Source: Fibrobacter sp. (GTDB lineage: Bacteria; Fibrobacterota; Fibrobacteria; Fibrobacterales; Fibrobacteraceae). From it: DNA of 64,000 nucleotides. How positions within the stretch are numbered: the stretch's first letter is position 1; every line of letters begins with the position of its first letter. Where the stretch lies: positions 1-64,000 of the forward strand of contig JAKSIL010000007.1 in assembly GCA_024398815.1 (NCBI GenBank), in the 5' to 3' direction. Shown in pieces: positions 12,756 through 63,794 of this stretch. The notes beneath the pieces were generated by a model that was not told the origin of the DNA, did no database searches, and saw only the letters and a program-made list of their open reading frames with translations. The position numbers were made by a program, and so were the translations under genes.

Positions 12756-12776
12756 GGTGATAATATATATAAAATA

Positions 12777-12899
12777 GTGGTTAGTGGTTGGTGGTTAGGA
12801 TTTAATTATGAATTATGAGTTATAAATTATGAGAAAGTGTCAGGCGACGCAACCGCGATTATAAATCTTGTAATTCGTACTTCGCAATTCATAATTAGT
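12777..12899. repeat. Intergenic period-7 degenerate repeat with inverted arms
   Basis: 12777-12799 reads as three GTGGTTA/G heptads. 12804-12833 reads as four heptads of the AATTATG class. 12856-12897 is a second heptad tract running in the complementary sense (AATTCGT, ACTTCGC, AATTCAT, AATTAG). The two AATTATG-class tracts can fold on each other imperfectly around a 22-nt loop. The element fills the gerW/lipoprotein spacer. No ORF. Confidence 0.6.
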
Positions 12900-26518: not shown

Positions 26519-26553
26519 TCAGGTTTCAGGCTTCAGAATTCAGGCCTCAAGGG
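26519..26553. repeat. Five-unit period-7 intergenic repeat
   Basis: The stretch divides without gaps into TCAGGTT, TCAGGCT, TCAGAAT, TCAGGCC, TCAAGGG. It starts at the base after the ychF stop codon. Confidence 0.55.
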
Positions 26554-29452: not shown

Positions 29453-32400
29453 TCAATTTTTGCCCATATTCAGCAAAAATCCGCCCTTCGAGCCCCCGAC
29501 AGGTCCCAATTCCACCTTCCAGTCAGCCAAACGGATGACATCCGGGTGATGTTCGATGACTATGACCGTGTTCCCTCGGGCCGAAAGCCTGCGCAAGACA
29601 TTCCAAAGCATCTGGATATCCTTGAGATGGAGACCGGTGGTGGGTTCGTCCAGCAGATAGACCATTTCGGTACGGGGAGTGGCCGAAAGTTCCGAGGCGA
29701 GTTTAAGGCGCTGGGATTCGCCGCCGCTCATGGTCGTTACGGGCTGGCCCAGTTTCAAGTAGCCAAGGCCCACGTCGCGAAGCACTTCCAACTTGGGAAG
29801 AATCTTGGGCTGGTCCTTGAAGAATTCACAGGCGTCCACGATGCGCATGTCGAGGACATCGGCGATGTTCCTGCCCTTGAAAGTGACGGAAAGCGTTTCC
29901 TTGTTGTAGCGCTTGCCGCCGCAAGCCTCGCAGGGCTCCCAGATATCCGAAAGGAAGTGCATTTCGACAGAGATGGCGCCACGTCCTTCACAAGCCTCGC
30001 AGCGGCCCCGGGCCAGGTTGTAACTGAACCTGCCGTAGTCAAAGCCCTTCGCCTTCGAAAGCGGAAGTTTTGCGAACAGGCGGCGAATATCGTCCAACAC
30101 CCCGGTGTAGCTGGCGGGCGTACTGCGTGGAGTCCCGGAAATCGGACTCTGGTCCACCAGCAACACCTCGCCCGACTGCTTTTTGCGGCCCCGGGCCAGG
30201 TTGTAACTGAACCTGCCGTAGTCAAAGCCCTTCGCCTTCGAAAGCGGAAGTTTTGCGAACAGGCGGCGAATATCGTCCAACACCCCGGTGTAGCTGGCGG
30301 GCGTACTGCGTGGAGTCCCGGAAATCGGACTCTGGTCCACCAGCAACACCTCGCCCGACTGCTTTTTGCGGCCCCGGGCCTGGAACGTCTTCTTGAGCGA
30401 GGGGAAGATTTCATCCATGACCATGGAACTCTTGCCGCTGCCGGAAACGCCGCAAACGACGCTGATGGCGCCCTTCGGGAACTTTACGGACAAATTCTTT
30501 AAGTTGTTCTTCTTGAGGTTCTTGAACTCGTAAAATTCCGTATCGTCATTGATAGGCTTCCCGGCAATTTCGTTCGCCATGGGAATCGATCGCGTCAGGT
30601 ACTTCACGGTTTCGCTTTGCGGGAACTGTTGCAGCGCATAAGGCTTCGAAAGTTGCGCAGGAGTCCCTTGCGCGACGACTTCGCCGCCGAATTCGCCCGC
30701 CGCGGGGCCCATGTCGATAATGTGGTCGGCGGCACGCATCATGTTCATGTCGTGTTCCACCACCACCAGTGTATTGCCCAAGTCGCGCAGGCGGTACAGG
30801 GAATCCAGAAGTTTCGCCGTATCGCTTTCGTGGAGGCCCACCGTCGGCTCGTCCAACACATAAAGGACGCCCTCCAAGCCGCTACCTATCTGGCTTGCAA
30901 GGCGGATGCGCTGGGACTCGCCACCGCTCAAGGTGTCGCCCGCACGGTCCAAACCGATATAGCCGAGACCCACGCTGCTGAGGAAGTTCAAACGTCCGAC
31001 GATTTCGCGAAGCAGCGGATCCGCAATCGTCTTGCGCGAAGCGGCCACCGCTGCAGTCGAACTATCCTTCGCAAAGTCCACATGGCCGAACCAGTCGCGG
31101 GCCTCGTCGATGCTCATGTGGTTTATGTCCATGATGTTCTTGCCTGCAATGCGCACCGCCAAATACTCGGGCTTGAGGCGTTCACCATGGCAATCGGGGC
31201 AGACATGGCCGTCGTCGTCGTGCCCTAGGCCAAGACATGTTTCACAGGCGCCCCAATGCGTATTGAAACTGAAATGACGCGGATTCAAAACGCTATCCAT
31301 GTACCAGCCGCACTTGGCGCAGCCCGGCTTTTCGCTGACGGAGAGGCGTTCTTCGCCGTCACATTCCACATAGAGGATTCCGTTGCCATCGCGATAACCG
31401 CGTTCAAAGGCTTCCACCAGGCGAGCGCGATTGGCTTCCTTCACAATCACTTGGTCGACAACGGCAAGCACTTCGCTTTCGCGTGTCGGAATTTTCGGGA
31501 AGGGCAACTCCACCATCTTTTTGCCAAGGTACGCCTTGCGGTAACCCTTGTCCAAAAGAATCTGCGAAAGTTTAACGATGTCCTTCACCTCGAACGCTGC
31601 AAGAACCGTTACCATCTTGCCTGTGCGCAATTCGAAGGACTGCTGCGTCAAATCGCCAGCGGAATAAGAACTGATGGGCTTTCCGCAATGGATGCAATGG
31701 GGCACGCCCGCACGCGCAAAGAGAATGCGGAAGTAGTCGTAAATTTCGGTAAGGGTCGCGACCGTACTGCGCGGACTCTTGCTCGCACTTTTCTGGTCGA
31801 TGGCGATGGCCGGAGCAAGGCCCGAAATGGAATCGATGCTTCCGCGGTCGGGGCGGCCCAAAAAGCGGCGTGCGTAGGTGCTGAGGGTTTCCACAAAGCG
31901 GCGCTGGCCTTCGCTGAAAAGCGTATGGAACGCAAGGCTCGACTTTCCTGAACCGGAGACGCCCGTAATCACGGTCAACTTGTGCCGCGGGACCGTCACG
32001 TCGATATTCTTCAGATTGTGCTTGCGGGCTCCGTGGACCTCGATATCCAGGGAATAGCCCTCGCCCGCCTTCAGGCTGCGATCGAACTGCTTGTTCTCGC
32101 CATGCTTTTTCGCAAGCACGGGCGCCAGATAGCGGCCAGTCTCGCTCTTTTTGCATTTGGCAATCTGCTCCGGAGTTCCCGTAGCCACGATGCGCCCGCC
32201 ATGCACGCCGGCATCCGGGCCGAGGTCGATAATCCAATCGGCGCACTTGATGACATCGAGATTGTGTTCAATGACGACGACGCTGTTCCCGAGACTGCGC
32301 AAGCGGTTCAGGCATTCCAGCAAACGACGGATGTCCTCGAAATGGAGACCCGTCGTAGGTTCATCGAGCAGGTAAAGCGTTTTTCCCGTTCCCGGACGGC

Positions 32401-34900
32401 GCAGTTCCGAAGCGATTTTCACGCGCTGCGCTTCGCCACCGCTAAGCGTCGTGGATGGCTGTCCCAAGCGCAAATAGCCGAGGCCGACTTCTTCCAGAAG
32501 TTTCAGCGGTTCAGCAATCTTCGGCAAATCCTTGAAGAACTCGCTCGCCTCGCTGATGCTCATTTCGAGAATCTCGGATATGTTCTTGCCCTTGAAATAG
32601 ATTTCGCGGGTGGCGTCGTTAAAGCGCTTGCCGTCGCACACGTCGCAAGTCACCTGTACGCTCGGCAGGATGTGCATGTCGATGACCTTGACGCCGGCAC
32701 CTTCGCAGGCATCGCAACGGCCGCCCTTCACGTTGAAACTGAACCGGCTCTTGGTGTAGCCACGGACTTTGCTTTCGGGGAGACTCCCGAACAAATCGCG
32801 GATGTCGTCCCAAATCTTGGTATAGGTGGCAGGGTTGCTGCGCGGAGTGCGGCCAATGGGCGTCTGGTCGATTTCAATTACCTTGTCTATATTTTCAAGA
32901 CCTTCCAGATGGTCGAACTTGCCGACAGGCTCTTCGCTATTGAAGAATACTCGAGCCAATTCCCTGCGCAAAATCTGGTTCACGAGCGTACTCTTGCCGC
33001 TCCCGGAAACGCCAGTCACAACCGTAAAGGCGCCATCCAGCGGGATTTCCACGTCGATGTTCTTCAGGTTGTTTTCGCAGGCACCGCAGACTTTGAGTTT
33101 CGGAGTATTCTTGTCAATCTTCTTGCGCTTCGCAGGAATCTCGATGCACTTACGGCCGCTCAGGTAAGCGCCCGTAAGCGAAGCCTTGTTCTTTTCGAGT
33201 TCATCGACTGTACCGGCGGCAATCACGCGGCCGCCTTCCACGCCGGCGCCCGGGCCCACGTCGACGATGTAATCGGCGTGCCTCATGGTATCTTCGTCGT
33301 GTTCCACTACGATTAGGCTGTTGCCCTGGGCCCGCAAGTGCTCGAGCATGCCGAGCAACTTGTCGTTGTCGCGGGGGTGAAGCCCGATGCTCGGCTCATC
33401 CATCACGTACAGCACGCCCTGAAGCCCCGCGCCAACCGCGCCGGCCAGCCTTATGCGCTGGGCCTCGCCGCCGCTGAGCGTCGCAGCCTTGCGGCTGATA
33501 TTCAAATATCCGAGGCCCACGGCCTGCAAAAAGTTCAGGCGCCCGCGAATCTCCTTGAAAATTTCCTTGCCAATCCGCTCTTCGCGATTGTTCAGTTTGA
33601 GGCCGTTGAAAAACTCCGCCGACTTCTCCACCGACCAGTCCGTCAACTGCGTCAAGTTCATCCCGTGGAACGTGACCGCGTTCGCGATGCGGTTGATGCG
33701 CGTCCCCTTGCACTCCGGACAGACGCCAATCTGCATAAACTTGCGGAAGTGGAAAATATGCCACATGTCCCACAGTTCCTGCATCACGGAAATCACGCCC
33801 GTCTCCGAACCGCTGGGAGTGCCGTACAAAAAAGCATGCTGCTGCTTTTCGGTGAGTTTGTACCACGGCGTATCCAGGCTGCAGTGCATCTCGTTCGCAA
33901 TCGTGCGCAAGTTGCGCCAGCCGAAGTCCGAGAAAAGTACGTCGCCGTCCTTTTTCTGGCAAGCAAGGCAGCCCTGCTTGATGGAAAGACTCTTGTCGGG
34001 CACCACGAGGTCAACATCGAATTCGCAACTTTCGCCCATGCCCTTGCAGACTGGACAACGGCCCTTGGGGTCGTTAAAACTGAAAAATCGCGGTTCCAGT
34101 TCCGGGATGGAAACGCCGCACTTGGGGCAAGCGAGCAGCGTTCCCTGCAAGCGGTAGTCCCCACCAGCAGCACCATCGCTCCCGGCAAAAAGGAAACTCA
34201 CGAGTTTCCCGTCGGTCAGTTTCAGGGCGCCTTCCAAGGCCTCGCGCAAACGGCTCATGTTCTTGGGTTCAATCACCAGGCGGTCTATCACCGCCTCGAT
34301 GGTGTGCTTCTCGTAGCGCACCAGTTGCGGCACATCCTCGAGCCTGTAGATTTCGCCATCCACGCGCGCGCGAACAAAACCGTTCTCCTTGAGTTCCAAA
34401 AGTTCCTTGCGGTATTCGCCCTTGCGGTCCTGCACAATAGGCGCCATCACCGTCACCTGGCGACCCACGTCGCTCACGTAAAGATTGTCGACAATCTGGT
34501 CCACCGTCTGCGCCTGGATGACCTTCCCGCATTCCGGGCAGTGCGGCACGCCAAGGCGAGCAAAAAGCAAACGGTAATGGTCCAAAATCTCAACCACCGT
34601 ACCCACCGTACTGCGCGGGTTCCTGTTCACCGTCTTCTGGTCGATGCTGATTGTCGGCGAAATTCCGCGCACGCTTTCCACATCCGGATGCTTCATGCGG
34701 CCAATGAACTGGCGCGCGTACGCCGAAAGGGATTCCACGAATCGGCGCTGGCCTTCCTGGAACACCGTATCGAACGCAAGACTCGACTTTCCGGAGCCCG
34801 AAACGCCCGTCACCACCACGATGGAATCGCGGGGAATGTTCAGGTTCACATGCTGCAGGTTGTGCTCGTGGGCGTCGCGGATGTCGATGGACTTTGTCAT
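29453..34900 (-). CDS. uvrA: Double-length UvrA (two fused UvrA copies)
   Basis: The protein has 1815 residues, about twice a normal UvrA (about 940). Four Walker A loops GVSGSGKSS/T occur near residues 33, 628, 977 and 1482, each with its own LSGGE-QR signature and DEP-G-H block. Zn-finger Cys pairs appear in every half. The two UvrA units join near residue 945. Role: damage recognition in nucleotide excision repair with UvrB. Chlamydial UvrA is also double-length. A perfect 61-residue duplication sits in the last ATPase half (separate entry). ATG 34900 has no Shine-Dalgarno site and lies 4 nt after a TAAATTTA box. Confidence 0.95.
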   Translation of the reverse strand: MTKSIDIRDAHEHNLQHVNLNIPRDSIVVVTGVSGSGKSSLAFDTVFQEGQRRFVESLSAYARQFIGRMKHPDVESVRGISPTISIDQKTVNRNPRSTVGTVVEILDHYRLLFARLGVPHCPECGKVIQAQTVDQIVDNLYVSDVGRQVTVMAPIVQDRKGEYRKELLELKENGFVRARVDGEIYRLEDVPQLVRYEKHTIEAVIDRLVIEPKNMSRLREALEGALKLTDGKLVSFLFAGSDGAAGGDYRLQGTLLACPKCGVSIPELEPRFFSFNDPKGRCPVCKGMGESCEFDVDLVVPDKSLSIKQGCLACQKKDGDVLFSDFGWRNLRTIANEMHCSLDTPWYKLTEKQQHAFLYGTPSGSETGVISVMQELWDMWHIFHFRKFMQIGVCPECKGTRINRIANAVTFHGMNLTQLTDWSVEKSAEFFNGLKLNNREERIGKEIFKEIRGRLNFLQAVGLGYLNISRKAATLSGGEAQRIRLAGAVGAGLQGVLYVMDEPSIGLHPRDNDKLLGMLEHLRAQGNSLIVVEHDEDTMRHADYIVDVGPGAGVEGGRVIAAGTVDELEKNKASLTGAYLSGRKCIEIPAKRKKIDKNTPKLKVCGACENNLKNIDVEIPLDGAFTVVTGVSGSGKSTLVNQILRRELARVFFNSEEPVGKFDHLEGLENIDKVIEIDQTPIGRTPRSNPATYTKIWDDIRDLFGSLPESKVRGYTKSRFSFNVKGGRCDACEGAGVKVIDMHILPSVQVTCDVCDGKRFNDATREIYFKGKNISEILEMSISEASEFFKDLPKIAEPLKLLEEVGLGYLRLGQPSTTLSGGEAQRVKIASELRRPGTGKTLYLLDEPTTGLHFEDIRRLLECLNRLRSLGNSVVVIEHNLDVIKCADWIIDLGPDAGVHGGRIVATGTPEQIAKCKKSETGRYLAPVLAKKHGENKQFDRSLKAGEGYSLDIEVHGARKHNLKNIDVTVPRHKLTVITGVSGSGKSSLAFHTLFSEGQRRFVETLSTYARRFLGRPDRGSIDSISGLAPAIAIDQKSASKSPRSTVATLTEIYDYFRILFARAGVPHCIHCGKPISSYSAGDLTQQSFELRTGKMVTVLAAFEVKDIVKLSQILLDKGYRKAYLGKKMVELPFPKIPTRESEVLAVVDQVIVKEANRARLVEAFERGYRDGNGILYVECDGEERLSVSEKPGCAKCGWYMDSVLNPRHFSFNTHWGACETCLGLGHDDDGHVCPDCHGERLKPEYLAVRIAGKNIMDINHMSIDEARDWFGHVDFAKDSSTAAVAASRKTIADPLLREIVGRLNFLSSVGLGYIGLDRAGDTLSGGESQRIRLASQIGSGLEGVLYVLDEPTVGLHESDTAKLLDSLYRLRDLGNTLVVVEHDMNMMRAADHIIDMGPAAGEFGGEVVAQGTPAQLSKPYALQQFPQSETVKYLTRSIPMANEIAGKPINDDTEFYEFKNLKKNNLKNLSVKFPKGAISVVCGVSGSGKSSMVMDEIFPSLKKTFQARGRKKQSGEVLLVDQSPISGTPRSTPASYTGVLDDIRRLFAKLPLSKAKGFDYGRFSYNLARGRKKQSGEVLLVDQSPISGTPRSTPASYTGVLDDIRRLFAKLPLSKAKGFDYGRFSYNLARGRCEACEGRGAISVEMHFLSDIWEPCEACGGKRYNKETLSVTFKGRNIADVLDMRIVDACEFFKDQPKILPKLEVLRDVGLGYLKLGQPVTTMSGGESQRLKLASELSATPRTEMVYLLDEPTTGLHLKDIQMLWNVLRRLSARGNTVIVIEHHPDVIRLADWKVELGPVGGSKGGFLLNMGKN
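30002..30367 (-). repeat. Perfect 183-bp in-frame tandem duplication within uvrA
   Basis: 30002-30184 and 30185-30367 are identical, and 13 bp of the unit recur again at 30368-30380. The unit encodes 61 residues (from KKQSGEVLLVDQSP to YNLARGR), between the fourth Walker A and its Zn finger. All reading frames of the two copies are identical, so the event is recent or an assembly artefact. The 13-bp GC-rich word encodes ARGR and probably mediated slippage. Confidence 0.95.
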
Positions 34901-47612: not shown

Positions 47613-48965
47613 ATGAAGAAGTACCACTTGGCCACATACGGCTGCCAGATGAACGAATACGATTCCGCAATGATAGCTGAACAGCTGGAATTACGCGGAT
47701 GTATCGCCACGGACACCCCCGAGAACGCCGATTTCATCATCGTGAACACCTGTAGCGTCCGCGAAAAGGCCGAAGACACTGCGATTGCGAACATCAGCAA
47801 ATTAAAGCATGCCAAGGAACTGAATCCGAATTTGAAAATCGCCGTATGCGGCTGCATGGCGAAGAACCGTGGCGAAGAACTTCAAAAAAGGCTAAAGATG
47901 GTGGACTTCTTCGTAGGTCCGGACCAGTACCGCAAAATTCCGGACTTGTTCTTCGAAGATGCAGAGCACCCCGCTTGCAACGTGAACGGAAAGTCAACCA
48001 AGCTCCGCAAGCGCCCGCAGCTGTTCCTTGAAGACGATATCAACGAAAATTACCTCGGCGAATACGCCAAACTGCAAAGCGACTTCAGCACGTTCGTCAC
48101 CATCCAGCGCGGCTGCAACAAGCGATGCAGCTACTGCATCGTGCCGTACCTCCGCGGCCCGGAAAAGTACCGCGACATGAACGACGTTTTGACCGAGGTC
48201 CAAAGGGCCGCGGACAAAGGAGTTTCCGAAGTGACGCTCCTTGGCCAGACGGTGAACGCCTACAAGAATGCAGATGCGGACTTCGCCACCCTCCTTACGA
48301 AAGTTTCCGAAATCGGAGGCATCAAGCGCATCCGCTTTACGAGTCCGCACCCGCGCCATTACACGAACGAACTCATCGACGTTCTTTTGAACAACCCGAA
48401 GGTCTGCCACTATGCGCACATTCCGCTGCAGAGCGGAAGCGACACCATGCTCAAAAAGATGCGCCGCCAGCACAACATGGAACAATACATGACGGTCATC
48501 GAGCAACTCCGCAGCAAGGACCCGTTCTACGGAATTTCCACCGATGTGATTTGCGGATTCGTTGGAGAAACTGCCGACGATTTCGAACAGACCATGAAGG
48601 CATTTGAAGCGTGCCAGTTCGACACGGCGTTCATGTTCATCTACAGCCCGCGCAAAGGCACGGAATCGTTCAAGGCGACGGAAACACTTACCGCCGAAGA
48701 AAAACTGGAGCGCCATACGCGCCTCGTGGAACTGCAGAATGCCATCACGCTCAAGCGAAACGAGATGATGCTCGGCCGCACCGAAGAACTTCTTGTCGAA
48801 AAGAATTCCATCCGCGACGACAGCGAGCTCCGCGGCCGCACGGACAACTTCAAGAAAGTGGTATTCAAGCCGGAAGAAGGCAGCATCATCAAGCCCGGCG
48901 ACTATGTAAAAGTCAAGCTGGACGACATTCGCGGCTGGACCATTCGCGGAACGCTTTGCAAGTAA
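47613..48965 (+). CDS. miaB: tRNA-2-methylthio-N6-dimethylallyladenosine synthase
   Basis: A 450-residue radical-SAM methylthiotransferase. The N-terminal UPF0004 domain begins YHLATYGCQMNEYDS (first cluster Cys) and has NTCSVREKA and CGCMA. The radical SAM centre is GCNKRCSYCIVPYLRG. A C-terminal TRAM domain ends near the stop. It modifies A37 of tRNAs reading UNN codons. ATG 47613 matches the canonical MiaB N-terminus; the upstream open frame is discounted. No Shine-Dalgarno site is seen, and a TAAATTTG box lies 5 nt before the ATG. Confidence 0.96.
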   Translation: MKKYHLATYGCQMNEYDSAMIAEQLELRGCIATDTPENADFIIVNTCSVREKAEDTAIANISKLKHAKELNPNLKIAVCGCMAKNRGEELQKRLKMVDFFVGPDQYRKIPDLFFEDAEHPACNVNGKSTKLRKRPQLFLEDDINENYLGEYAKLQSDFSTFVTIQRGCNKRCSYCIVPYLRGPEKYRDMNDVLTEVQRAADKGVSEVTLLGQTVNAYKNADADFATLLTKVSEIGGIKRIRFTSPHPRHYTNELIDVLLNNPKVCHYAHIPLQSGSDTMLKKMRRQHNMEQYMTVIEQLRSKDPFYGISTDVICGFVGETADDFEQTMKAFEACQFDTAFMFIYSPRKGTESFKATETLTAEEKLERHTRLVELQNAITLKRNEMMLGRTEELLVEKNSIRDDSELRGRTDNFKKVVFKPEEGSIIKPGDYVKVKLDDIRGWTIRGTLCK

Positions 48966-49002
48966 GGTGCGAGGTTCAAGGCGCAAGGCTGATGTTCAAG
49001 GT
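48965..49002. repeat. Period-7 intergenic repeat after miaB
   Basis: AGGTGCG, AGGTTCA, AGGCGCA, AGGCTGA form four clean heptads starting at the miaB stop codon, then the phase slips. Confidence 0.5.
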
Positions 49003-54481: not shown

Positions 54482-54566
54482 AATTATGAATTATGAGTTA
54501 TTAGTTATGAGGGTTCCCGCTGCAAAGCATTTCTCTAATAATCCATAATTTATAGTTCATAATTAA
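54482..54566. repeat. AATTATG-class period-7 element with inverted arms
   Basis: Left arm 54482-54511: AATTATG, AATTATG, AGTTATT, AGTTATG, AG. Right arm 54537-54566: CTAATAA, TCCATAA, TTTATAG, TTCATAA, TT. The arms are complementary with mismatches. The first 19 bases match the 12804 element exactly. Confidence 0.6.
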
Positions 54567-54584
54567 CAAGCACTAGCCACTAAA

Positions 54585-54672
54585 TTACGGGGAGCTGGGA
54601 AACCGGCTGAGAGGAATACATCAAGTATTCGACCCGCAAACTTGATCTGGGTAATACCAGCGATAAGGATAA
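54585..54672 (+). promoter_or_regulatory. TPP riboswitch (THI element)
   Basis: The conserved THI-box segments are present in order: ACGGGGAGC, then GGCTGAGAGG, then GACCC, then CTTGATCTGGGTAATACCAGCG, ending AAGGAT. It lies directly before thiM, so thiamine pyrophosphate probably blocks the thiM ribosome site or transcript. Confidence 0.95.
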
Positions 54673-54674
54673 AT

Positions 54675-55544
54675 ATGAATAGCAAAGACGACCCCAGCGT
54701 ATATGCACGCATGCTAACACAGGCACGCGAGCAAAAAGCGCTTATCCATTGCATCACAAACTACGTCACCGCCAACGACTGCGCGAACGCTATTCTCGCA
54801 ATAGGCGCCTCCCCCATCATGGCGGACGACCTCCGCGAAGTCGCGGACATCGTAAAGATTTCCAAGGCGCTCGTGCTGAACATCGGCACGTTGAACAGCC
54901 GCACCGTGGAATCCATGATTGCCGCAGGCAAAAAGGCGAACGCGCTTGGCATTCCTGTAATTTTCGACCCCGTGGGCGCAGGCGCGTCCGCTTACCGCAA
55001 CGAAACAACGCAAAGACTTTTGCACAGCGTGAGCATGACAATCATCCGAGGGAATCTCTCCGAAGTAAGCTTCATTGCAGGTCTTGACGTTTCCACCAAG
55101 GGCGTTGACACTGCTGAAGAAGATTCCACGAAGGATCCTGTCGCCATTGCAAATAAAGTCGCCAAGGAATACAACTGCATTGCAGCCATCACTGGTGCCG
55201 TGGACACGGTTTGCAACGGAAGCCGAGTAGCCCGCATCGAGAACGGTACGGCAGAACTTTCGCGCATCACGGGTACCGGTTGCATGACAACAGCCCTTGT
55301 CGCCGCCTTCTGTGGCGCAATCTTTGCAATCGACTTACACTCCGCCGCCAACGTTGCAAAGTCTGCGAGCGCATACTTTGACGCTAGCATCGCAGGAATC
55401 GCCGCAATGGGCATCGCAGGCGAAATCGCCGAATCAAGCGTTCAGGAAAAAGGTACGGGAAGTTTCCATGTCGCCCTCTTGGACGCCCTCAGCAAGCTTG
55501 ACGCAAATACATTTATGACAAAGGCAAAAATTCATGAAGCCTAG
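54675..55544 (+). CDS. thiM: Hydroxyethylthiazole kinase
   Basis: A 289-residue protein from ATG 54675, preceded by AAGGAT. An upstream in-frame TTG lies inside the riboswitch and is discounted. Motifs: MADDLREV, FDPVGAGASAYRN, and TGTGCMTTALVAAF (anion hole and Cys). It phosphorylates the thiazole for thiamine salvage. It overlaps thiE by 11 nt. Confidence 0.95.
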   Translation: MNSKDDPSVYARMLTQAREQKALIHCITNYVTANDCANAILAIGASPIMADDLREVADIVKISKALVLNIGTLNSRTVESMIAAGKKANALGIPVIFDPVGAGASAYRNETTQRLLHSVSMTIIRGNLSEVSFIAGLDVSTKGVDTAEEDSTKDPVAIANKVAKEYNCIAAITGAVDTVCNGSRVARIENGTAELSRITGTGCMTTALVAAFCGAIFAIDLHSAANVAKSASAYFDASIAGIAAMGIAGEIAESSVQEKGTGSFHVALLDALSKLDANTFMTKAKIHEA

Positions 55545-58782: not shown

Positions 58783-59454
58783 ATGACCGAAACAGATACT
58801 TTTGTACATTTTCTTGTTGAATCCGGAGCACTCAAGTTCGGCAATTTCGTAACCAAGAGCGGCCGCGAAACACCGTATTTCATCAACACTGGAGAGTTCC
58901 GCACTGGAGCCTCCCTTTCGAAGCTTGCCGAATTCTACGCTGCAGCTTTCATGAAGCACTTCGACGGCAAGGCCCAGAACCTTTACGGACCGGCCTACAA
59001 GGGCATTCCCCTTTGCGCCGCCACCGCCATGAAACTTTCAGACGTCTACGCCAAGAACCTCACCTTCACCTACAACCGCAAGGAAGTGAAGGACCACGGT
59101 GAAGGCGGTTCCCTCGTCGGCTACAAGTACGCCGAAAAAACGAACGTCGTCATCATCGAAGACGTGATTACCGCAGGCACCAGCGTGAACGAAACCATGC
59201 AGGCGCTTTCGCAGATTGAGAACGCCAACGTCATCGGCCTCTTGATTTCCGTGGACCGCAAGGAAAAACTCGAAAACGGGAAATCCGCATTGCAGACTGT
59301 ACAAGACGAATACGGCATCGAAGCGCATTCCATCGTGAACATTAACGACATCATCGCATTCCTTGAAAACGAAGAGAACCGCAAGGCCGTGGGCGCCCCC
59401 GAAGGAATCCTTGACCGCGTTTATGCCTACCGCGAGAAATGGGGCGCAGTTTAG
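58783..59454 (+). CDS. pyrE: Orotate phosphoribosyltransferase
   Basis: A 223-residue protein. The PRPP-binding loop is VVIIEDVITAGTS (about 123-135), with GPAYKGIPLCAATA and YNRKEVKDHGEGG upstream. It makes OMP in pyrimidine synthesis in the cytosol. Length is standard for the E. coli-type enzyme. It is in a run with purU and the small membrane protein. Confidence 0.96.
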   Translation: MTETDTFVHFLVESGALKFGNFVTKSGRETPYFINTGEFRTGASLSKLAEFYAAAFMKHFDGKAQNLYGPAYKGIPLCAATAMKLSDVYAKNLTFTYNRKEVKDHGEGGSLVGYKYAEKTNVVIIEDVITAGTSVNETMQALSQIENANVIGLLISVDRKEKLENGKSALQTVQDEYGIEAHSIVNINDIIAFLENEENRKAVGAPEGILDRVYAYREKWGAV

Positions 59455-59518
59455 GTTAAAGGATAAAGGACAAAGGTTAAAGGAATCATCTTTACGCTTT
59501 AACCTTTCCACTTTGCGC
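59454..59518. repeat. Period-7 inverted-arm element after pyrE
   Basis: Left arm 59454-59483: GGTTAAA, GGATAAA, GGACAAA, GGTTAAA, GG. Right arm 59490-59518: CTTTACG, CTTTAAC, CTTTCCA, CTTTGCG, C. The arms are complementary with mismatches around a 6-nt loop. The next ATG begins 2 nt later. Confidence 0.65.
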
Positions 59519-59519
59519 T

Positions 59520-60212
59520 ATGAGGAAACCATTTGTTCTAGTGATGCTGATATTGGCTTGCGCTCTTACAGGGTGTGGCCATAGTTATCATTGGACACAG
59601 TCGCACCCCGACTATAGACAGGTTCCCTACGGAGACTTAGCCATAGCCGGCACGGAGAACGCCTTCGTGCTTACCCGTGCGGCCTGGTTCGCAAAGAAAC
59701 TGGAAATAAGCACGGATAGCGTGCAACTTAAAGTCACCAGTTTTTGCGAACAAGTTTTCCTGGACGAGCTCAAGCGAGCCTACCCGTCATTCACCCGAAT
59801 TCCAAAGGAAATTCACAAGGCGTTTCCCGAAGAAAGCCAAAAGCTGGACGACCGAATATTTCTGAAAGGGCACATTCCCGAACAGGGAGTCGTCGTAAAG
59901 GACAGCGAAGGAAAGATTCCGCCGCGAATACTGATTTTACATGAATTCTTTATCGGCACGGACCTGAAGCGGGAACTGTTCTTCGACTACGCCTTGATTC
60001 ACAACGAAAGCGCAGACAAAAAGACTTCAAAGAATCTAAGCGCAGTCATTTCGTACACCCTTTGGGACAACGAGAAGCAGAGACCGCTATTCAGCGCAGT
60101 GGACGAAGTCCAAAAAAGCATCATCACGCCCACAATGGCCGACATGGAATCCCTGATTCGCACGTCGGTACAGCAGATTCGTAAAAACATGTACGCAGGA
60201 GTTGTCCGATGA
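59520..60212 (+). CDS. Predicted lipoprotein
   Basis: A 230-residue protein. The lipobox is LTG-C at residue 19. The body is mixed alpha/beta with no family recognised. It overlaps the next gene by 4 nt (ATGA), so both are co-translated. The heptad element forms its 5' flank, leaving no room for a Shine-Dalgarno site. Confidence 0.75.
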   Translation: MRKPFVLVMLILACALTGCGHSYHWTQSHPDYRQVPYGDLAIAGTENAFVLTRAAWFAKKLEISTDSVQLKVTSFCEQVFLDELKRAYPSFTRIPKEIHKAFPEESQKLDDRIFLKGHIPEQGVVVKDSEGKIPPRILILHEFFIGTDLKRELFFDYALIHNESADKKTSKNLSAVISYTLWDNEKQRPLFSAVDEVQKSIITPTMADMESLIRTSVQQIRKNMYAGVVR

Positions 60213-61518: not shown

Positions 61519-62913
61519 ATGAGTGAAGAAATTAAAGAAACAGAAGTTCAAGAAAAAGTCAATCCGTTTTTAACTCCCGTCAAGATTATCGAACCCGAGC
61601 ACAAGCTCCCCGACTACACTTTTGACATGCTCCCCGAAGAGCAGAAGAACATTCTCAAAGGCCACGGTTGGACAGACCTGATGCCCGTCCAGCGCAAGAC
61701 TATCCCCTACATGCTCGCCGCCCGCGACATGCTCGTGCAATCCAAGACCGGCTCGGGAAAGACCGGCGCCTACGTGCTTCCGCTTTTGCAGGTGATTGTC
61801 CGTGACCATGTGTTCCCGCAGGCACTCATTCTCGTTCCGACCCGCGAACTCTGCATGCAGGTGCAAGACGAAATCGAAAAACTTTCCGTAGGTACGGGAA
61901 TCCGCTCCGTCGCCATTTTCGGCGGTGTGAGTTACGAACCGCAGCTCAAGGCCCTCCGCGCCGGCGTGCACATCATCGTCGCCACTCCGGGCCGCCTCAT
62001 GGACCATGTGAGCCGCGGGAATGTGGACTTCCTCGACATTCGCGACCTCGTGCTTGACGAAGCCGACGAAATGCTTTCGATGGGTTTCTACCCCGACATG
62101 CAGAAGATTCGCAAGTATTTGCCCAAGATGATTTCGTGCACCATGTTCAGCGCCACGATTCCGCAGACGGTCAAGAGCCTCGCCCGCGAATTCCAGCGCC
62201 CGAGCGCCGAATTCCTTTCGCTCTCTTACGACAAGGTCATCGCAAACAACCTGGAACACCGCTACTACCCATGCGACGTGATGGACAAGGACTCCATGAC
62301 CATCAAAGTCCTGGAATACTACAATCCTGACAGCTGCATGATTTTCTGCAACAAGAAGTGCGACGTGAGCTACCTGGAACAGGTGCTTTCCGGTTACGGC
62401 TTCGAAGTCGGCGCCTTGAGTGGCGACGTGGCCCAGAGCCTCCGCGAAAAGACCTTGAACGCCTTCCGCGACAAGAAGATTCGCATTTTGATTTGCACCG
62501 ATGTTGCAGCCCGCGGCATTGACGTGGACCACGTGACCCACGTGATTGTGTACGACCATCCGGCCGACCACGAAGTCTACGTGCACCGCAGCGGCCGTAC
62601 CGCGCGTGCCGGCCGTAACGGTCTCTGCATTTCGCTCATCACGCCGGTCGAAGAAATCGACCTCAAGCAGACCGCTGTAGATTTCGGCATCAACTTCATC
62701 AAGATGGACCCGCTCACGAACGAAGACGTCGCAAAGAAGGTCAGCGAACGCGCCCGTCTTAAACTTGAAAAGGAACAGAACCATTTCGGCGGTCAAAAGG
62801 CCAAGGAACGCATCAGCCATTTCATTCCGCTCGCAAAGGAACTTGCGAACGGCACGGAAGACGAACAGATGCTCCTCGCCTGGCTGCTGGACAGGTACAT
62901 GTGGAAAAAATAG
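61519..62913 (+). CDS. DEAD-box ATP-dependent RNA helicase
   Basis: A 464-residue protein from ATG 61519. Motifs in order: Q motif region, SKTGSGKT (I), PTRELC (Ia), ATPGR (Ib), DEAD (II), SAT (III), then HRSGRTARAGR (VI). There is a short charged C-terminal extension. Role: RNA remodelling (ribosome assembly or mRNA decay); which paralogue it is cannot be decided by eye. An upstream in-frame start overlaps the promoter and is discounted. Confidence 0.94.
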   Translation: MSEEIKETEVQEKVNPFLTPVKIIEPEHKLPDYTFDMLPEEQKNILKGHGWTDLMPVQRKTIPYMLAARDMLVQSKTGSGKTGAYVLPLLQVIVRDHVFPQALILVPTRELCMQVQDEIEKLSVGTGIRSVAIFGGVSYEPQLKALRAGVHIIVATPGRLMDHVSRGNVDFLDIRDLVLDEADEMLSMGFYPDMQKIRKYLPKMISCTMFSATIPQTVKSLAREFQRPSAEFLSLSYDKVIANNLEHRYYPCDVMDKDSMTIKVLEYYNPDSCMIFCNKKCDVSYLEQVLSGYGFEVGALSGDVAQSLREKTLNAFRDKKIRILICTDVAARGIDVDHVTHVIVYDHPADHEVYVHRSGRTARAGRNGLCISLITPVEEIDLKQTAVDFGINFIKMDPLTNEDVAKKVSERARLKLEKEQNHFGGQKAKERISHFIPLAKELANGTEDEQMLLAWLLDRYMWKK

Positions 62914-63027
62914 GTATGAGCTATGAGGTACGAGGTCGGCTCCCAAGGGAGCCTAGAGGAAAAGTCCCAAAGCCTCAAAGCGACCTCTACAGACAACCTC
63001 GAGCCTGGAACCTCGAACCTGGAACCT
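62913..63027. repeat. Period-7 element between the helicase and map genes
   Basis: Left tract 62913-62939: GGTATGA, GCTATGA, GGTACGA, GGTCGG. Right tract 62997-63027: CCTCGAG, CCTGGAA, CCTCGAA, CCTGGAA, CCT. In between lies GGCTCCCAAGGGAGCC (62938-62953), a perfect small palindrome. The map ATG begins 5 nt after the last heptad. Confidence 0.6.
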
Positions 63028-63032
63028 AAAAA

Positions 63033-63794
63033 ATGGCAAAGATAAAAGTCAAATCCGCAAAAGAAATCGAACTGATCCGCGACGCCGGCGCACTTGCCGC
63101 CGAAACGCTGATCCGTGCAGGCGAAATGGTCAAGCCCGGCGTTTCAACTCTTGAAATCGACGAATTCATCGGCGACTACACCCGCAAGCACAAGGGAATC
63201 TCCGCCTGCATGGGCTACCACGGATACCCGCGCTACGCCTGCATCAGTATAAACGAAGTTGTCTGTCATGGCATCCCGAACGCAAAGACCATCCTCAAGG
63301 AAGGTGACATCGTGAACATCGATATCACCACCATCCTTTCGGGCTACCACGGCGACACTAGCGCCATGTTCGCTTGCGGAAAGATTTCCAACCTGGCCAA
63401 GGAACTCGTAGATACCGCCAAGTTCTGCATGGAAGAAGGCATCCGCGCAGCAGGCGAACAAGGAGCCAGGTTCAACGACATCGGCTGCGCCATCCAGGAC
63501 ATCGCCGACGAGCACGGATTCAGCGTAGTGGAAGACTACTGCGGCCACGGAATCGGTCGCGGATTCCACGAAGAACCGACCGTCCTCCACTTCCGCAACT
63601 ACGAACGCACCCCCTTCATCGAAGTCGGGAACGTGTTCACCGTGGAACCGATGATCAACGTCGGTCGCCCGGGCACAAAGACGCTCAATGACGGCTGGAC
63701 CGCCGTGACCCGTGACGGAAGCCTCTCCGCCCAGTGGGAACACACCATCGTAAAGACCAAGGACGGAATCGAAATTCTCACGCTTCCGAGGTAA
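63033..63794 (+). CDS. map: Methionine aminopeptidase
   Basis: A 253-residue type I enzyme that removes initiator Met. Metal ligands are in DITTILSGYHGDTS (two Asp), GHGIGRGFHEEP (His), TVEPMI (Glu) and AQWEHTI (Glu). Start MAKIKVKSAKEIELIRDAG is canonical. The stop overlaps the next ATG (TAATG). Confidence 0.96.
   Translation: MAKIKVKSAKEIELIRDAGALAAETLIRAGEMVKPGVSTLEIDEFIGDYTRKHKGISACMGYHGYPRYACISINEVVCHGIPNAKTILKEGDIVNIDITTILSGYHGDTSAMFACGKISNLAKELVDTAKFCMEEGIRAAGEQGARFNDIGCAIQDIADEHGFSVVEDYCGHGIGRGFHEEPTVLHFRNYERTPFIEVGNVFTVEPMINVGRPGTKTLNDGWTAVTRDGSLSAQWEHTIVKTKDGIEILTLPR

Follow-up and report, generated by a model that had tools for sequence, protein, structure and literature searches.

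The window, the whole 64,000-nt stretch of Fibrobacter DNA that we analyzed, carries six intergenic tracts containing degenerate 7-nt units (heptads), among them one that starts inside the stop codon of pyrE, one after argS, one after ychF, and one between a helicase gene and map. A preliminary description had grouped these six spacers into one repeat family; five of them pass our thresholds, and the sixth, at 48965, is weak. Several tracts are compared below with genes of the protein family PF05635 (23S_rRNA_IVP, S23, "four helix bundle"), and we coined the name IVP element for a heptad-armed element encoding a PF05635 protein. The features are as follows.

12775 to 12800, forward strand: AGTGGTT-type array, 24/24 identical to an arm of IVP elements L195/L196
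12803 to 12834, forward strand: AATTATG-type left arm, 32/37 identical to an arm of IVP element L283
12869 to 12898, forward strand: right arm, complement of the AATTATG arm
26519 to 26553, forward strand: single arm after ychF, CAGGTTT/CAGGCTT type (heptad tract 26519-26549)
48965 to 49002, forward strand: weak single tract and doubtful member, AGGTGCG AGGTTCA AGGCGCA AGGCTGA
54482 to 54512, forward strand: left arm after argS, AATTATG AATTATG AGTTATT AGTTATG
54544 to 54566, forward strand: right arm, CATAATT type, pairing with the left arm as one long hairpin (z = -6.6)
54571 to 54583, forward strand: outer-arm remnant CACTAGCCACTAA, AGTGGTT type; at the same site, L031 has a complete AGTGGTT array that ends in these bases
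59451 to 59484, forward strand: left arm of the pyrE tract, about five heptads (AGGTTAA AGGATAA AGGACAA AGGTTAA AGGAATC), starting inside the pyrE stop TAG
59487 to 59520, forward strand: right arm of the pyrE tract, CATCTTTACGCTTTAACCTTTCCACTTTGCGCTA, 29/34 ungapped identity to L256:1085-1118
62911 to 62937, forward strand: left arm of the helicase-map element, AGGTATG AGCTATG AGGTACG AGGTCGG, starting in the helicase TAG stop
62938 to 62994, forward strand: core of the helicase-map element, GC-rich cap hairpin GGCTCCCAAGGGAGCC, without an ORF
62995 to 63027, forward strand: right arm of the helicase-map element, complement of AGGTTCC/AGGTTCG, stopping just short of the map start codon

Tract detection at the 12777 locus gave heptad extents of 12775-12833 and 12869-12898. 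The earlier statement that the spacers divide into heptads without gaps was overstated, as the heptads are confined to the arms and the cores (about 12835-12868, 54513-54543, and 62938-62994) are nonheptadic. A second, complementary tract had been reported for four of the six spacers, and we confirmed an inverted arm at each of them (12777, 54482, 59454, and 62913). Many tracts also start at or near a stop codon as described, the rightward cases lying 0, 0, 0, 3, 6, and 9 nt away. The idea of a shared period without a shared sequence was too strong, as word families (AATTATG, AGTGGTT, AGGTTCG/AGGTATG, and AGGTTAA) recur across loci; read toward the loop, nearly all words start with AG or AA.

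The analyzed genome is Fibrobacter MAG G000, from a rumen bacterium (3.14 Mb in 88 contigs, 85.75% complete). We scanned the window and 20 further stretches of this one MAG, 458 kb in total with 40.2 kb in 221 spacers, using a home-made gene caller for the division into spacer and coding DNA. At a threshold of at least 16/21 matches, the spacers of this sample held 17 lag-7 windows, whereas 60 dinucleotide-preserving shuffles averaged 0.23 and never exceeded 1. Lags 2-6 and 8-13 gave 0-3 spacer windows each, lag 14 gave 7, the expected harmonic of 7, and lags 24 and 30 gave 6 and 5. The density of lag-7 windows was 41.8 per 100 kb in spacers versus 0.7 in coding DNA. The autocorrelation at lag 7 that had been proposed as a check on the spacers is present in the 458-kb sample, and the lag controls uphold a period fixed at 7 within the family. 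Chance or composition as the source of the heptads is ruled out by the shuffles together with the lag controls. Related Fibrobacter loci show a lag-7 excess too (19 windows versus mostly 2 at other lags, with 17 at lag 14), N runs contributing about 2 to each of these counts. Repeats of other kinds were seen: a perfect tandem duplication with a 183-bp unit in 2.1 copies at 30002-30380 of the window, inside the long reading frame 29453-34900, and, in an 846-bp spacer (L124, 2748-3593), a long block with terminator-like hairpins that is present in at least two direct copies.

The pyrE tract gave the closest comparison. Its left arm is 31/34 identical to the arm L256:688-721, the best match among the compared DNA outside this genome, and in L256 (genome G031) that arm flanks an intact PF05635 ORF. 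The order and strand of the two arms agree between L256 and 59451-59520, and between the arms lies the PF05635 ORF in L256 versus only 2 nt at the pyrE tract. The right arm, which is matched about equally well by an IVP flank on a Treponema plasmid (L298), opens with CAT, which in L256 is the start codon of the ORF on the reverse strand, and retains its context CATCTTTA, so that the ORF, before its loss, would have run antisense to pyrE. Judged by these alignments, the pyrE tract is both arms of a PF05635 element whose ORF appears to have been deleted. Occupancy of the pyrE junction differs among related genomes.

PF05635 genes are present in 53 of 80 Fibrobacter genomes. We read 70 of these genes closely, scoring a lag-7 tract of at least 15/21 within about 100 nt; the loci compared are related by descent. 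Such a tract was found at the flanks of 60 of the 70 genes (41 upstream, 38 downstream) and at 21 of 698 flanks of other genes, while none of the 70 reached the threshold at lags 4-6 or 8-13. The Fisher value for this association, 2.7e-60, sets genes against flanks and counts related elements as if they were independent, and is to be read only as "very large." Eight to ten of the 70 ORFs have no clear lag-7 tract. In a full copy, the left arm comprises about 3-6 heptads, a single PF05635 ORF of some 115-140 codons follows, and the right arm is reverse-complementary to the left one. This complementarity was seen in all 36 elements with both arms clear (6.13 versus 3.18 of 7 matches). Individual arms contain between 2 and 13 heptads, mostly 3.5-6, with right arms clustering at 4.3-5. 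For pairs of elements at different sites, similarity of the arm words tracks protein identity (rho 0.343, with 0 of 500 permutations as high), and since the correlation holds across different sites, the words go with the element rather than with its location. Proteins of the FAYRKL type, for example, go with AGACGAG arms and those of the KDLVVWQ type with AGTGGTT arms. In genome G051, elements L250 and L271 lie at unrelated sites; they resemble each other from arm to arm, and the resemblance ends at the flanks.

No PF05635 ORF was detected in the 85.75% complete genome G000 or within the window tracts, and we file these tracts as ORF-less derivatives because their arms match those of ORF-bearing elements. 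PF05635 arms rank among the best matches of the other double tracts as well. Besides the matches listed above, 54482-54512 resembles arms of the PF05635 elements L273, L282, and L283, and the right arm at 62995-63027 is 28/32 identical to an arm of IVP element L194 (TRF score, 59). The helicase-map element as a whole has an ortholog in L180 (80% over 125 nt), and L194 is among its next best matches. The tract at 26519 has a fold z of -0.46 and weak similarity to IVP arms (E 0.1); the one at 48965 falls under the thresholds, with a fold z of +0.77 and poor arm similarity (E of at least 1). Assignment of these two of the six original tracts to IVP elements is not convincing. A TPP riboswitch lies at 54578-54686, directly downstream of the argS heptad element, and CACTAGCCACTAA overlaps its 5' edge. 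At the corresponding argS-thi site in L031 (5300-5800), there is a long composite spacer of successive AGACGAG, AGTGGTT, and hairpin units, which looks as if elements had been inserted into elements.

At the helicase-map junction, which is 62913-63033 in the window, we compared about 50 Fibrobacter species. In many species the two genes are just 1-2 nt apart. Other species, including that of the window, have an ORF-less heptad hairpin whose words vary by lineage, AGGTATG/AGGTTCG here and AGTGGTT/AGTAAAC, AGTAGAC, or AGTTATG in other lineages. Four species (L147, L157, L159, and L179/L182) have a PF05635 ORF at this junction, in inserts of 428-442 bp composed of a left arm (AGGTTTT AGGTTGT), the ORF, and a complementary right arm; the ORF product matches PF05635 with an E of 1.7e-39. 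No target-site duplication was evident by eye when filled and empty helicase-map junctions were compared. Within the genus, PF05635 elements are found most often at lysS-lolC, where most of 30 species carry an ORF-bearing element, other species have a gap of 0-4 nt or a 21-nt relic, and this genome has an ORF-less heptad hairpin (L126:17088-17141). The same small set of junctions is occupied repeatedly, a pattern also consistent with old elements undergoing turnover. Absence from close relatives had been put forward as a sign against the repeat family. The tracts are indeed absent at many orthologous sites, yet this reflects variable occupancy and not an artefact, and such a test would have misfired because orthologous sites differ in occupancy.

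Outside Fibrobacter, we compared plasmid and genomic sets picked by protein similarity; one search used an approximate type-2 PF05635 protein as the query, and the records found were then read directly. The named plasmids came from seven phyla: Cyanobacteria, Azospirillum (Alphaproteobacteria), Gemmatirosa (Gemmatimonadota), Monoglobus (Bacillota), Treponema (Spirochaetota), Bernardetia (Bacteroidota), and Chlorohelix (Chloroflexota). Period 7 was dominant at 19 of 23 plasmid PF05635 genes, period 8 at three (L242, L294, and L295), and one was unclear. The period-8 elements are scattered over three unrelated branches of the protein tree. On cyanobacterial plasmids, PF05635 genes are bordered by arrays (AGTAGGG, GCTAAAA, AGGTGAC, and GAAAAGG) resembling the cyanobacterial heptanucleotide repeats known as STRRs. 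At other genomic loci, mostly from Clostridia, heptad tracts accompany 9 of 18 PF05635 ORFs versus 1 of the 22 ORFs used as controls (P = 0.002). A clear lag-7 tract is missing at about half of the genomic PF05635 ORFs outside Fibrobacter. A well-supported clostridial clade (L213, L214, L217, L218, L219, L229, L231, and L237) lacks plain heptad arms, and in L213 and L217 short words (ATATCAC and GTGAATT) alternate with tiny GC-rich hairpins in place of heptads. Many insertions fall between adjacent genes of one operon, such as cas6-cas4, cas10-cmr3, cas2-cas1, the ribonucleotide reductase genes, hsdS-hsdR, and helicase-methylase. We also observed PF05635 elements between the genes of CRISPR-Cas, restriction-modification, and other defence operons (L240, L242, L245, L297, L300, and L301). 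PF05635 genes in cas loci were noted earlier, without the repeats (PMC3936711), and IVP elements offer a reason for their presence inside CRISPR-Cas operons.

Arms and ORF form a unit that is found at unrelated sites with variable occupancy, with arm words that match protein clade and with lengths that, at one site, vary by 7- or 14-nt steps. The tracts of the window are, with high probability, short gene-less derivatives of this small PF05635-encoding IVP element. The earlier statement that no known mobile element explains the repeats was unsupported, given arms that match those of a PF05635-encoding element and words that follow protein clade. A related explanation, which differs in the inferred mechanism only and can be held alongside this one, is that the tracts are MITE-like and owe their movement to a transposase or reverse transcriptase unrelated to the PF05635 ORF, which would be only a passenger. 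It would suit the presence of tracts in a genome with no PF05635 ORF detected and a protein family without a known catalytic motif, and PF05635 genes occur in 15 of 18 genomes with a reverse transcriptase versus 38 of 62 without one (P = 0.10). However, arm words correlate with protein clade, and this one gene recurs between arms of this kind in eight phyla; both observations favor a functional tie, and we think a mere passenger unlikely. A resident reverse transcriptase as the required partner was rejected, because one was detected in just 18 of the 80 Fibrobacter genomes.

It is very improbable, in our judgment, that the tracts are instead selected RNA hairpins at gene ends (a terminator, an RNase III site, or an mRNA stabiliser) at which PF05635 genes preferentially insert. 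Many tracts do come after stop codons, and for several the fold is much stronger than in shuffled sequence (z -6.6, -5.6, and -3.8). However, folding strength alone is uneven among the inverted tracts of the window (z -1.3 at 12777, -6.6 at 54482, -1.7 at 59454, and -2.3 at 62913), some tracts do not fold, and orthologous junctions in many species are without any hairpin. Moreover, words vary between species at one site and agree across sites within one protein clade, and the similarity of elements at two sites stops at the arms. Intrinsic terminators were rejected, as no consistent T-run was seen and some tracts do not fold; so were G-quadruplexes, since AATTATG and like words have no G-tracts, and all-frame stop codons as the purpose of the words, since AGGTTCG, CAGGTTT, and AGACGAG have no forward stop.

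Ordinary simple repeats made by replication slippage, with a second arm from hairpin template switching and no link to a gene, would account for the gain and loss of units at one site in 7- or 14-nt steps (element lengths in relatives differ in this way in L134/L135/L139, L173/L176, and L143/L160) and for neighbouring copies that are alike, as in L121, but slippage alone gives no reason for a single dominant period and predicts neither the concentration at PF05635 ORFs (60/70), nor arm words that follow protein clade across sites, nor the match of both pyrE-tract arms to one ORF-bearing element (L256), so that we give this explanation almost no credence and consider it largely refuted, while slippage probably operates inside the arms.

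Returning to the IVP element, we propose that it moves between stop-start junctions, where insertion would be tolerated, and that loss of the ORF leaves hairpins, which would be far more numerous than full copies, in a putative decay series from full copy to hairpin to relic. Arrays would gain and lose units, so that words drift while the period stays. The PF05635 protein may act on the arms of its own element, in either DNA or RNA form; no recombinase for the element was identified. In this genome, with no PF05635 ORF detected, the tracts would be old or would have been moved in trans, or else the gene would have been missed. The TRAP protein contacts its triplets one per subunit and is the model for a more speculative idea, that a five-membered ring might touch one heptad per subunit, fixing the spacing near 7 nt and letting each clade keep its own word. 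Solved PF05635 relatives include 2gsc and 2rld, and the Xanthomonas campestris protein XCC0516 is among the solved structures. In Xanthomonas, the PF05635 protein forms a homopentamer whose subunits are four-helix bundles (PMC4990558). We rejected protein clade as the setter of period 7 versus 8, since the period-8 elements are scattered in the tree. As these elements form no single clade, protein geometry alone is weakened as the source of the period, and with the wide range of arm lengths this makes the ring geometry a proposal, not a result. A wider generalization, which we hold only tentatively and regard as somewhat doubtful, is that heptanucleotide repeats across bacteria could largely be arms or relics of one ancient single-gene mobile class, with a ring reading one heptad per subunit and a period that stays fixed while the word evolves with the protein. 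It would take in the cyanobacterial STRRs and, by extension, the TAACTGA repeats of Beggiatoaceae and GGGAATC of Xanthomonas.

We found no published link between PF05635 and heptad repeats in the papers searched, which included few from subscription journals and few preprints, and a prior report is possible. PF05635 is a widespread family without a known function, and the link gives the repeats a role as element ends and the protein one as the gene product of the element; protein clades with matching arm words are a natural series for reading recognition rules. PF05635 resembles the accessory protein Avd of diversity-generating retroelements (DGR) in sequence and structure (PMC10053308), but unlike in a DGR, reverse transcriptase was not detected in this genome and turned up in just 18 of the 80 relatives. 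MITEs, REP, and other palindromic repeats are, like the tracts, short, gene-less, inverted, multicopy, and intergenic. Their sequence is common family-wide, whereas the tracts have just a period and a loose word skeleton in common; compared with MITE terminal repeats, the tracts have inverted arms with words common only within word families.

The intervening sequences (IVS) of 23S rRNA that carry an S23/IVP ORF in Leptospira and Coxiella were described as a selfish element (PMC4990558), and both ORF-bearing and ORF-less insertions occur in rRNA genes of CPR bacteria (PMC11270868). Like IVP elements, the rRNA IVS have one small PF05635 ORF, complementary ends, and a length of about 430 bp. Their location is within rRNA helices, from which RNase III excises them, whereas IVP elements lie at protein-gene junctions and have heptad arms; there is no rRNA in the window, where all tracts lie between protein genes.

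Heptameric repeats are generally over-represented in bacteria, according to work cited in PMC4692102, which has long been noted without an explanation; IVP elements suggest one. The GGGAATC and GGGGA(C/T)T repeats of Xanthomonas and Nostoc were explained by G-quadruplexes (PMC4692102). They are, like the IVP tracts, heptameric, intergenic, and often less than 50 bp from a stop codon, with about four units preferred, but G-quadruplexes are impossible for AT-rich words such as AATTATG. The TAACTGA repeats of Beggiatoaceae, Cyanobacteria, and Bacteroidetes were interpreted as translational control sites (PMC4679880). They share with IVP tracts intergenic heptamers, a patchy distribution, empty orthologous spacers, and indels in 7-nt steps; unlike IVP tracts, they are mostly in a single orientation, and a PF05635 link was not proposed for them (PMC4679880).

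The preliminary description had named the cyanobacterial STRRs as the nearest analogy, and this comparison holds. STRRs of Calothrix and Nostoc are tandem heptanucleotide repeats in intergenic DNA with several words per genome, in the account cited in PMC4692102. The lag-7 excess of this genome likewise represents tandem heptanucleotides in intergenic DNA, and the 7-nt period and multiple words per genome are common to both. STRRs are described in that account as direct repeats without a gene, an inverted partner, or a mechanism, whereas here the arrays appear as arms of an ORF-bearing element. The taxon is cyanobacteria for STRRs and Fibrobacter for the window tracts, and the kind of array is common to both.
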